DNA of 64,000 nucleotides from Gammaproteobacteria bacterium (GTDB taxonomy: Bacteria; Pseudomonadota; Gammaproteobacteria; SZUA-229), in contig JAOULX010000009.1 in assembly GCA_029881795.1 (NCBI GenBank), positions 62,001 to 126,000 of the forward strand. The letters run 5' to 3'. The translations under genes and the position numbers were made by a program. The notes beneath the pieces were generated by a model. It worked only from the letters and a program-made list of their open reading frames with translations, had not been told where the DNA came from and did not search any database. This document shows positions 7,840-29,777 of the stretch, one piece after another (the first letter of the stretch is position 1; the number at the start of each line of letters is the position of its first letter).

Positions 7840-8895
7840 TTAGAAGTTTTTACGCAGACCGATAGTCAAAGAAGTTACGCTCTTATCAGCATTTGCAGTT
7901 GCTGGAGCAGCCACTTTACCAGTACCACCAGTTGTACGCTGACCAACGATCAGGTGAGTGGTCTTGTTCAGCTTGATGATATCACCGAAAGCAGTGTAGC
8001 TCATGTCATGAGCGGCGTTATCACCAGCAAATGAACCGTTAGCGATTACAAAGTTATGCTTACCCATTTTGTATGAGAAGTTCATGTAAGTTAAATCACC
8101 AGCACCATTTGCAGCTGCTTCAACAGACTCAGACTGGAAAGTCACTTTCATCGCATCATTGATTTTGTACTGAGCACCAAACTTACTGTTTGACTTATCT
8201 TGAGTACCACCAGTAGTAGTACCAGCTTGCTTAGCTGTAGAATAAATTACTTTCAGGCCTTTAACGCCAGTATAAGTAATTGCCATCAATGCATCGCCTT
8301 CTGAACCAGTTTTAGTAGCATCGTTGTCATCATCTAAAACAGAAGTCTGGTATTGGACCTGTACACCGGCTACTTTTGGTGACTTATATTCTACTAACTG
8401 GCTGATGAAACCGTTACTTGCGTAAGCGCCTTTCGCCATACCACCGTTACCACGAGCCTGCAGAGCAGTTGCTACGAACGGGTCAAATTTAACACCACCG
8501 GCTGTTTTGTAAGCACCGTGGAAACGACCCGCTGCAACAGAACCCCAAGCTGCTTTAATACCTACAAATGAATCACGCTGACAATAAACAGATTCTACAG
8601 ACTTATTTGGTGCTGCTGTATAATTTTTATCACAACCACCAGCTGCAACAGTGTCATTGATATCAATTTGCAGTTCGAGTTTAGCAAAAGCAGTCATGCC
8701 GCCGCCTAATTCTTCAGAGGTTTTAAAACCTAAACGGCCACGACCGTCATTATCATTCTGTGTAACACCAGCAGCATCGCCACCAAGACTGTTAATACCC
8801 GCATACATTTGGCTGTATACAGTAACATCCGCATTTGCAGCCATTGATGCTGCCATACCAGCAGTGATAGCTGCTGCAATTATAGTTTTTTTCAT
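7840..8895 (-). CDS. Gram-negative outer-membrane porin
   Basis: A 351-residue general porin that would form a beta-barrel trimer for passive solute uptake. An N-terminal signal peptide (about 1-22, ending AANA before DVTVYSQ) is followed by the typical start YSQMYAGIN. The eyelet-type segment KTSEELGGGM is present, and the last residue is the phenylalanine (LRKNF) used as the BAM recognition signal. Small-residue-rich strands with alternating polarity run throughout. The start is preceded by CAGGAGTC as ribosome-binding site. It has its own strong terminator and a hairpin in the leader, so it is probably monocistronic and abundantly expressed. Confidence 0.93.
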   Translation of the reverse strand: MKKTIIAAAITAGMAASMAANADVTVYSQMYAGINSLGGDAAGVTQNDNDGRGRLGFKTSEELGGGMTAFAKLELQIDINDTVAAGGCDKNYTAAPNKSVESVYCQRDSFVGIKAAWGSVAAGRFHGAYKTAGGVKFDPFVATALQARGNGGMAKGAYASNGFISQLVEYKSPKVAGVQVQYQTSVLDDDNDATKTGSEGDALMAITYTGVKGLKVIYSTAKQAGTTTGGTQDKSNSKFGAQYKINDAMKVTFQSESVEAAANGAGDLTYMNFSYKMGKHNFVIANGSFAGDNAAHDMSYTAFGDIIKLNKTTHLIVGQRTTGGTGKVAAPATANADKSVTSLTIGLRKNF

Positions 8896-9855: not shown

Positions 9856-10284
9856 TTATATATCCAGCACTTTAGGCTGTTGAGCTTCATGATTATGCTT
9901 AGGACCTGAGTAAACTTTCAGCTTACGGTACATGTCACGACCCAGTGGGTTCTTAGGTAACATACCTTTCACTGCCAGCTCTATAACACGCTCAGGCGCT
10001 TTATCAATCAGTTTATCAAAGCTGATTGATTTTAAACCACCAATAAAACCACTATGGTGATGATACATCTTATCCTTTGCTTTATTACCTGTAACCGCTA
10101 CTTTTTCAGCATTGATCACGACAATATAGTCGCCGGTATCAACATGCGGGGTGTAAACAGGCTTATGTTTGCCGCGCAAACGCAAAGCAATCTCAGCTGC
10201 CATACGGCCCAGAGTTTTATCAGTAGCATCGACAACAAACCAGTCGCGCTTTACAGTTTCTTTATTGGCACTAATCGTTTTCAT
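9856..10284 (-). CDS. rplM: 50S ribosomal protein L13
   Basis: The start at 10284 gives 142 residues beginning [15 protein letters not shown], which aligns with the universal L13 N-terminus. An upstream in-frame extension to 10326 would add 14 unsupported residues. Conserved features include [16 protein letters not shown] and [10 protein letters not shown]. Cotranscribed with rpsI. Confidence 0.98.
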
Positions 10285-10640
10285 AACGTTTGCATGCTCC
10301 ATGAGTATGCGAATTCGAAGGCGCAAGATTGTACATAATTAGCGTAACAACCACAAGCCCTATCCAAAGGTTTTCTGGATTATTTAGCCGCACAAGCACC
10401 ACTAACAAGAAAACAGAGCGCGCGAATCTCGGTGATTGCGATTCTCTGCGGCCAAATCCACTGATCCATACTATTTCATTACCCGAACCCACCACAAGCT
10501 TAATTCGCGTCATCACGTATTAATGCTAGACATCGTCCGCGACACCGCTGTTCTGTGGCGAACACTCGCACTTAAACACTGATGCCCAATTAGCACCTGT
10601 TTCAAGCCACCAGCTGAGCAACCTGGCATTTATACTGGGC
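10285..10640. other. Leader and spacer region upstream of rplM
   Basis: About 355 bp without a supported gene, between the rplM start and the small-RNA terminator at 10641. It must contain the rplM-rpsI promoter, reading leftward. Short open frames here overlap one another and lack ribosome-binding sites. No structured leader was identified. Confidence 0.5.
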
Positions 10641-10735
10641 AAAAAAAAGGCGTTGCAGGGGATGCAACGCCTTAAATAACCACCAAAATGGAGGATGGAG
10701 GAGTCTTGAAAATCTTAGGGGAAAATTCAAAACAT
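10641..10735 (-). ncRNA. Putative Fur-regulated trans-acting small RNA (RyhB/PrrF/NrrF-like logic)
   Basis: Minus-strand transcription unit of about 95 nt with no plausible ORF. A consensus-like promoter and Fur-like box lie directly upstream (10742-10769). The RNA ends in a strong intrinsic terminator: 11-bp stem AAGGCGTTGCA/TGCAACGCCTT, loop TCCCC, then a T-run. Between them is an open pyrimidine-rich segment with UUUUCCCCUAAG and CUCCUCCAUCCUCCA, which can pair with Shine-Dalgarno sequences. Iron-responsive small RNAs in other proteobacteria have this plan and repress Fe-protein mRNAs. I recognise no primary-sequence match to RyhB, PrrF or NrrF. The transcription start is estimated from the -10 box. 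Confidence 0.7.
10645..10675 (-). terminator. Terminator of the small RNA
   Basis: 11-bp perfect stem (10647-10657 with 10663-10673) and an 8-base A-run on the plus strand immediately left, which gives an uninterrupted U-run on the minus-strand transcript. No protein gene ends close upstream on the minus strand except the ferredoxin, about 230 bp away. Confidence 0.9.
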
Positions 10736-10741
10736 GAGCAT

Positions 10742-10769
10742 ATTCTAATATAATAATTATCATTGTCAA
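10742..10769 (-). promoter_or_regulatory. Sigma-70 promoter with overlapping Fur-like box
   Basis: On the minus strand: TTGACA (10769-10764), a 16-bp spacer, then TAGAAT (10747-10742). The spacer carries the AT-rich imperfect palindrome TAATAATTATCATTGTC (plus-strand 10751-10767), 14 of 17 matches to the core of the classical Fur consensus. A Fur dimer bound here would occlude RNA polymerase. Confidence 0.7.
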
Positions 10770-10900
10770 ACATAAATATAGCTAAATACTAATATTCTAA
10801 TAAATATCGATAAGCGGTAGTCTCAATATTGTCGTCACAACTGTTCGTGCCACCAATCAAACCCCTCGTAGCACGACTGGCTTGTTATCATGCGCAGTGA

Positions 10901-11215
10901 TTAATCCTCAAGCAGCAAGCGCTGCACCCGCTCACCCCGGATTAAGTGCTTGTCGAAAATCTCATCGATATCCTCTTTATCAACATAGCTGTACCAGACC
11001 GCATCCGGATAAACCACCAACACCGGTCCTGCTGCACATCGATCCAGACAACCTGCGGTATTAATTCGCACTTTGTCCGGGATCTGCTGCCCCATTTCTT
11101 TTAATTTTTGTTTGGCATAGGCGCGCAAAGCCGCTGCACCGTGATCTTCACAGCAAGCACTGCCATCGTTACGCTGATTAGTACAAAAGAAAACATGGTA
11201 TTTAAAATGCGACAT
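10901..11215 (-). CDS. Thioredoxin-like [2Fe-2S] ferredoxin
   Basis: The start at 11215 gives 104 residues beginning MSHFKYHVFFCTNQR; a longer frame to 11338 adds a spurious N-terminus that overlaps the divergent gene. The cluster ligands are the cysteine of FFCTNQR, one of the CC pair that follows, and both cysteines of GCLDRC, the spacing of the thioredoxin-fold ferredoxins (Aquifex/Azotobacter type). It probably acts as an electron carrier or a Fe-S sensor. It is divergent from the GlcF-like gene with 73 bp between starts. Iron proteins of this kind are natural targets of the nearby small RNA, but this is inference. Confidence 0.9.
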   Translation of the reverse strand: MSHFKYHVFFCTNQRNDGSACCEDHGAAALRAYAKQKLKEMGQQIPDKVRINTAGCLDRCAAGPVLVVYPDAVWYSYVDKEDIDEIFDKHLIRGERVQRLLLED

Positions 11216-11288
11216 ATTGATCATTCGGATAGCCTTAAAGAACAGGTATAATAACAGCCCCCAGAGCCCTGTGAACATAGTAAATACC

Positions 11289-12473: not shown

Positions 12474-12502
12474 TCATTGTAATTATTAACGGATTTTCTA
12501 CT

Positions 12503-13141
12503 ATGCGGCATTTTTCACCATTTGATCAGCTCATCATGCAGGGCAACCACGCCATCCGTACTATTTTTGGCCAGCCTGAAATCACTGAGCGCAAATACCC
12601 GGCAGAAACCATTGATGATAGCGAACTCGATGATCAGCAACGCAAACACGTAGCCGGATTGATGCGAATTAACCACGCCGGCGAAATTGCAGCTCAGGCT
12701 TTGTATTCTGGCCAGGCCCTGACCGCCAAGCTAGAAGACGTACGTGAAAGCATGAACCGGGCCGCCCTAGAAGAAAACGACCACCTCGACTGGACCGATA
12801 AACGACTACATGAACTCGGTAGCCAGCGCAGCCTGCTGGCTCCTTTCTGGTATGCAGGCTCCTTTGTGATCGGCGCTGCTGCTGGCGCTGCCGGCGACAA
12901 ATGGAGCCTAGGCTTTGTTGCCGAGACCGAAAAACAAGTCGTTAAGCACCTGCAAGATCATTTAGAAAAACTTCCGGAAAACGATCAGCGTAGCCGGGCG
13001 ATCCTTGAACAAATGAAAGAAGACGAGCAGCACCACGCCACCGTTGCACTTGAACATGGTGGCCGAGAACTGCCCTGGCTAGTGAGAAAACTAATGACAC
13101 TGACATCAAAAGTGATGACTAAGACGGCGTACCGGCTTTAA
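12503..13141 (+). CDS. coq7: 3-demethoxyubiquinol 3-hydroxylase (Coq7 family)
   Basis: A di-iron enzyme of aerobic ubiquinone synthesis that hydroxylates the demethoxyquinol ring. ATG at 12503 gives 212 residues; an in-frame extension upstream into the preceding gene is not supported. Di-iron ligands fit E61 (INHAGE), E91-N-D-H94, and E175-Q-H-H178. A membrane-dipping hydrophobic segment lies at about 112-130. Coq7 close to speD and crp is an order I recall from Pseudomonas. Heptad element B begins 4 bp after the stop codon. Confidence 0.95.
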   Translation: MRHFSPFDQLIMQGNHAIRTIFGQPEITERKYPAETIDDSELDDQQRKHVAGLMRINHAGEIAAQALYSGQALTAKLEDVRESMNRAALEENDHLDWTDKRLHELGSQRSLLAPFWYAGSFVIGAAAGAAGDKWSLGFVAETEKQVVKHLQDHLEKLPENDQRSRAILEQMKEDEQHHATVALEHGGRELPWLVRKLMTLTSKVMTKTAYRL

Positions 13142-29468: not shown

Positions 29469-29777
29469 ATGAAACGTACTTTAGTATCGCTGGCTACTGT
29501 AGCCATCTTAGGCCTTTCTTCTACTGCTATCGCTGCCGGTGATGCCGCTGCAGGTAAAGTTAAAGCTGCCAGCTGCATGGGTTGTCATGGCGCACAGGGT
29601 ATCAGTGCTGTACCCACTTACCCGAATCTGGCCGGCCAAAAAGAGGCATACACTGCCAAGCAGTTACACGCTTTCAAAAACAAAACACGTAATGACCCGA
29701 CTATGAACGCAATGTCAGGCCCATTAAGCAACGCTGATATCGATAATCTGGCTGCTTATTACGCTAGCCTGAAGTAA
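29469..29777 (+). CDS. Class I c-type cytochrome (c553/c4-like), periplasmic
   Basis: 102 residues. The start is ATG at 29469, preceded by TGGAGGAT; a longer frame to 29403 is not needed. A signal peptide (about 1-22, ending IAA) precedes a single haem motif C36-M-G-C-H40, and the axial methionine is likely in MNAMSGPL. The small size and ALxxYxASL C-terminus fit a mono-haem electron shuttle. The ribosome-binding site matches 8 bases of the anti-SD segment of the small RNA at 10.7 kb. Confidence 0.93.

Follow-up and report, generated by a model that had tools for sequence, protein, structure and literature searches.

Double-hairpin RNAs with an anti-Shine-Dalgarno (anti-SD) sequence are known from Burkholderia as Rfam family RF02278 ("Betaproteobacteria toxic sRNA"), which is related to S17 of Bordetella (PMC11722255). 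RNAs of the RF02278/S17 kind have so far been described as betaproteobacterial (PMC7011215, PMC11722255), and a tsRNA has been reported in Aeromonas salmonicida (PMC8780938). The RF02278 RNAs carry CU-rich segments complementary to ribosome-binding sites (RBS); overexpression of one of them, ncS27, slows growth and its silencing speeds growth (PMC5688073), and NcS27 acts on carbon-source use (PMC10987360). In B. pertussis, S17 adjoins coq7; the RNA binds Hfq, is cleaved by RNase E and acts as a repressor through RBS pairing, with a sigma-54 activator as a target (PMC11722255). Growth inhibition on overexpression in E. coli has been reported for the Burkholderia RNAs, whereas exponentially growing cells showed none with S17 (PMC11722255).

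A gene of similar build lies in the 64-kb stretch of gammaproteobacterial DNA analysed here (the window). Its minus strand holds, at 10769-10641, a complete unit of promoter, Fur-like box, anti-SD segment and terminator, with ~95 nt free of any long open reading frame. The parts of the unit, its neighbours and two candidate targets are as follows.

10764-10769, minus strand: -35 box TTGACA, from the promoter scan
10749-10767, minus strand: Fur-like 19-mer that agrees with the E. coli consensus at 16/19 and is not conserved
10742-10747, minus strand: TAGAAT as -10 box, within a ATATTAGAAAAT-like stretch that is conserved
10703-10733, minus strand: 5' hairpin of the predicted full-length RNA, from the fold; its sequence varies among genera
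10690-10703, minus strand: anti-SD segment CUCCUCCAUCCUCC, the conserved core (DNA CTCCTCCATCCTCC), from sequence and conservation
10680-10698, minus strand: small hairpin CCAUC...GGUGG with CUCC in the loop; 10698-10694 pair with 10684-10680
10641-10673, minus strand: intrinsic terminator with an 11-bp stem, loop UCCCC and then a U run, from sequence and covariation
9856-10302, minus strand: rplM, for ribosomal protein L13, downstream of the RNA and on its strand
10901-11218, minus strand: 2Fe-2S ferredoxin-like protein, upstream neighbour
12497-13141, plus strand: coq7, conserved neighbour, found also in the two RF02278-positive genomes (G259 and G143)
7840-8895, minus strand: porin, a candidate target with RBS GGAGUCUU, complementary to the RNA's AAGACUCC
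29469-29777, plus strand: cytochrome c, a candidate target with RBS UGGAGGAU, complementary to the RNA's AUCCUCCA

The promoter TTGACA-16 bp-TAGAAT matches at 11/12 positions and ranks first among 5 in 1 kb, where 2.2 are expected, with a predicted RNA start near 10735. The terminator reads AAGGCGTTGCA-TCCCC-TGCAACGCCTT followed by a T run, and all 11 positions of its stem are paired. A 100-nt RNA from this unit folds with z = -5.6 (0/200 shuffles equally stable), and the predicted fold leaves most of the CU-rich segment unpaired. A sequence-only reading of the window had described this promoter, a Fur-like palindrome between its two boxes, ~95 nt of non-coding sequence, the perfect stem with its T run and an RBS-complementary segment. 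All of these are present as sequence, and all of its coordinates were correct. Its wider proposal of an independent sRNA gene equipped with promoter, terminator and anti-SD segment is borne out by sequence and by conservation.

Using 161 bp of the unit as query, we found matches in 3/3 same-genus genomes (83-94% identity), while many other family members matched solely over the core and terminator (query 84-151), which are kept in most of the family. The nearest named genomes are uncultivated MAGs. Eighteen core and terminator sequences were aligned (A1) and built into a covariance model (R1), which matched 120 of the 274 class-level genomes (E <= 0.001), mostly at one place per genome. The exact core pattern occurred in at least 118 named stretches, and the titles of those listed pointed, as far as informative, to Gammaproteobacteria or unassigned Proteobacteria; genera among the matches listed include Thiocapsa, Allochromatium, Halochromatium, Thioalkalivibrio, Thiothrix, Thiomargarita, Sedimenticola, Ectothiorhodospira and Arenicella. 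When R1 was run on 80 of the core-pattern stretches, 82 full-length matches were listed, every one (82/82) with core and terminator. Judging from these comparisons, the unit is a real and widely conserved sRNA gene, far beyond chance. The same-genus, class-level and core-pattern matches rule out a lineage-specific RNA, as the sequence-only reading had suggested it might be, and so does its relation to RF02278/S17.

Structure and promoter are conserved to different degrees. In the terminator, 9/11 pairs were changed on both sides among 80 sequences, with a covariation score of 0.367 compared with 0.125 in shuffles, in an alignment that was fitted to the model and is thus somewhat favourable to covariation. 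Computation establishes the gene, its conservation and this covariation. Helix 1 (CCAUC...GGUGG) is invariant in most copies and shows no variation in the pattern-selected set, and because it hardly varies its structure is not proven by covariation. In two loci of genus g5 (L012 and L015) CTCCTCC is kept and helix 1 reads ATTCTC...GAGAAT, as if replaced whole. A -35/-10 pair (TTGACA-16/17/18-TATAAT-like) scored at least 10/12 in 48% of 151 orthologous upstream regions and in 2.8% of base-composition shuffles, percentages that are approximate because the regions include near-duplicates from overlapping genome sets. The orthologue promoters are also conserved beyond the hexamers, where a CATACTGATT-like start region comes after the ATATTAGAAAAT-like -10 region (window 10735-10752). 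This region sometimes reads TATTAG-N6-CTAATA, possibly a regulator site. A Thiotrichaceae stretch (L137:5780-6057) holds three tandem copies of the RNA ~110 bp apart, and close pairs occur in two further genomes (G212 and G180).

The neighbourhood recurs as well. With room to tell in 96 named loci, rplM lay on the same strand <=1 kb downstream of the RNA in 54 (median distance from core to rplM match 208 nt). The ferredoxin lay within 1.3 kb in 34/92 named loci, coq7 within 4 kb in 24/58, and osmC was close to the RNA in ~20 loci. In the window coq7 is near the RNA and not adjacent to it, since ~1.8 kb and two genes separate them.

An Rfam scan of the window found no family at its gathering score. 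The best sub-threshold match was RF02278 over its full length (model positions 1-64), at 29.4 bits against a cut-off of 50. The sequence-only reading, which recognised no sequence match, had taken the RNA as possibly undescribed; this view is not supported. The window copy has the CUCCUCCA segment, a hairpin with a CU-rich loop and an intrinsic terminator directly after it, the feature set of RF02278. Weak Rfam matches to suhB/mmgR, ar14 and AniS were judged to reflect the terminator and C/U-rich composition and were rejected. Searching 58 and 274 genomes with the RF02278 model returned mostly the same places as R1, at 24.7-48.7 bits. Two genomes exceeded the cut-off (67.0 and 54.5 bits; R1 there 31.3 and 36.1 bits), and in both the RNA adjoins osmC-coq7. 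Because the same places are matched by both models, the osmC/coq7 neighbourhood is shared and S17 lies beside coq7, homology of the window RNA to RF02278 is likely, though the Rfam threshold is not reached and coq7 is oriented differently towards the RNA in the RF02278-positive genomes than in the Gammaproteobacteria. The window copy is therefore not an RF02278 member in Rfam's sense; it is a gammaproteobacterial branch of that kind. Separately, three stretches, L223 (G000:C5:188966-189020, minus strand), L224 and L225, hold an sRNA-like TTTGAGTCTCCTTTTATTGTGGTTGATT and a terminator near an oligoribonuclease-like gene. This type of unit is kept in three genomes of the genus and matches RF02278 weakly (32.8 bits for the copy in the genome of the window), and we set the possible paralogue at C5:188966 aside because it is without the CTCCTCCATCCTCC core.

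With the RF02278 RNAs ncS03, ncS05, ncS27 and ncS62 of Burkholderia cenocepacia, the window RNA shares the CUCCUCCA start, a small hairpin with a CU-rich loop, an immediate intrinsic terminator, a core of ~60-65 nt, RBS complementarity and places found by both models. It differs from them in its core (AUCCUCC instead of ACCUCCUC), in its score below the cut-off, in being mostly single-copy, where those RNAs number three to five per genome, and in its frequent position upstream of rplM in sulfur-oxidising Gammaproteobacteria. Like S17, it has a longer predicted primary RNA ahead of the CU-rich segment, a further hairpin and terminator, coq7 nearby and a likely relatedness to RF02278; S17L, however, is 190 nt long and S17 is Bvg-linked, and the likeness is one of description (PMC11722255). 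The NmsR siblings of Neisseria meningitidis, also compared by description, differ as a tandem pair acting on TCA-cycle genes. sX13 of Xanthomonas has in common C-rich loops that act on G-rich motifs near starts (PMC3771888), but it has three stem-loops with 4C/5C loops, adjoins polA, is confined to Xanthomonadaceae and is Hfq-independent (PMC3771888).

The likeness to RF02278 could in principle be convergent, with an unrelated anti-SD RNA matching the model through its C/U-rich composition and terminator; sX13 or CcsR of Rhodobacter may be parallels. Such an origin would fit the sub-threshold score and the simplicity of CU-rich cores and terminators as features, yet the scores run continuously from 25-49 bits to above the cut-off at the same places and the coq7/osmC neighbourhood is common to both groups, so that we regard convergence as improbable. 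The RNA might instead be a leader or attenuator of the rplM-rpsI operon, that is, a prematurely terminated rplM 5' end sensing ribosomal protein or the state of translation. Its position close upstream of rplM on the same strand, in the 54 loci given above, would fit such a leader. However, rplM is absent there in the other 42 of the 96 named loci (including Thiocapsa, Allochromatium, Halochromatium and most Thioalkalivibrio), where core and terminator are still kept, and it is also absent at both RF02278-positive genomes. The three tandem copies in L137 and the strong terminator, for which no antiterminator form was noticed (without a dedicated search), speak against it too, and we consider a leader very unlikely.

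A role in iron was the central suggestion of the sequence-only reading, by which the RNA would be a Fur-repressed, iron-sparing RNA like RyhB, PrrF and NrrF: Fur would cover the promoter spacer when iron is plentiful, and low iron would release the RNA to shut off iron proteins. The site itself is good. GACAATGATAATTATTATA at 10767-10749 matches the E. coli Fur consensus GATAATGATAATCATTATC at 16/19, is the window's sole site with <=3 mismatches (0.03 expected), and is equalled by 2/2000 dinucleotide shuffles of the 130-bp upstream region (p about 0.001). In addition, the genome encodes a Fur protein, and the complementary cytochrome c RBS, kept in the genus, would suit an iron-protein target. 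In the three same-genus orthologues (L002-L004), by contrast, the box is missing (12, 10 and 11 of 19 compared with 16/19), even where the orthologue is 94% identical over the unit. This rules out conserved Fur control; among the promoter, Fur box and anti-SD segment proposed earlier for comparison in relatives, the first and last are kept and the box is not. Fur matches of at least 14/19 occurred in 3/147 promoters (0.85 expected), which is not clearly enriched, and at least three (L216-L218) of the six other genomic sites with <=3 mismatches lie inside long open frames. No Fur-like box was found near the two TonB receptors identified in the genome and no FeoB match was found for calibration; the genome's own Fur motif is therefore uncalibrated. 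Published RF02278 RNAs of B. cenocepacia showed no significant low-iron change, and in the same experiment ncS63 (BrrF) rose 53-fold (PMC5688073, Table 2). Nor did the RNA match, at a permissive threshold, RyhB/PrrF/NrrF/BrrF-type families that have an Rfam model. What it shares with RyhB, PrrF, NrrF and BrrF is a stand-alone gene with a Fur-like promoter site in this one genome; unlike theirs, the site is not conserved and the targets are candidates. Both the orthologues and the published RF02278 data speak against iron sparing, which we hold to be unlikely. Fur control in this species alone is possible, with little to support it. An old anti-SD double-hairpin RNA may have come under Fur here through a few changes in the spacer, becoming iron-sparing with cytochrome c among its targets; this is a slim chance but, if true, a RyhB-like function would have newly arisen from a different RNA family.

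We instead consider it likely that the unit encodes a trans-acting anti-SD sRNA of the RF02278/S17 double-hairpin type, probably assisted by Hfq (the genome encodes hfq), that blocks GGAG-type RBS. From the computed features we infer that its sigma-70-type promoter and intrinsic terminator would yield a trans-acting RNA of ~95 nt, which may be cut to ~65 nt where the CU-rich segment begins. The exposed CUCCUCCAUCCUCC, probably with Hfq, would pair with the GGAG-type RBS of a set of mRNAs, blocking ribosome binding and repressing translation. If Burkholderia and Bordetella are a guide, transporters, porins, and carbon or energy metabolism would be the main targets; the candidates in the window are the porin and the cytochrome c.

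These two are among the strongest predicted RBS duplexes at plausible starts in the window. The cytochrome c RBS UGGAGGAU offers 8 nt of perfect complementarity and is kept in 4/4 genomes of the genus; the other family genera compared have a different sequence there. It would count as a strong RBS in any case. For the porin, the RBS is retained in both other same-genus genomes where it was found. The porins themselves (window 7840-8895; L231) are strongly divergent in protein sequence within the genus, with an almost identical leader AAGGCAGGAGUCUU. Both iron-protein genes named earlier as plausible targets were considered: the cytochrome c at 29.5 kb has the conserved complementary RBS just described, whereas no GGAG-type site was seen in the window before the likely start of the ferredoxin. 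No long target match rose above chance. A long extended match to GGAGGATGGAGGAG was rejected, as it had zero mismatches at the gene itself only and the rest were at about control level. Almost any anti-SD sequence should pair with short RBS motifs, and the target pairings are only suggestive because a strong RBS pairs with any such sequence.

The occurrence of this RNA across sulfur-oxidising Gammaproteobacteria at the coq7/ferredoxin/rplM locus, below Rfam thresholds, seems to be undescribed, as far as a partial literature search goes. It extends the RF02278/S17 kind to a large share of the Gammaproteobacteria, above all to sulfur oxidisers and purple sulfur bacteria, frequently at a set position with ferredoxin or coq7 on one side and rplM on the other. 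The case also cautions against settling the function of an sRNA on one good Fur-box match. Among the sRNAs of the group that still lack annotation, this is one of the more widely conserved; the covariance model now allows its annotation, and the target set of an anti-SD regulator is opened to comparison across two large clades.
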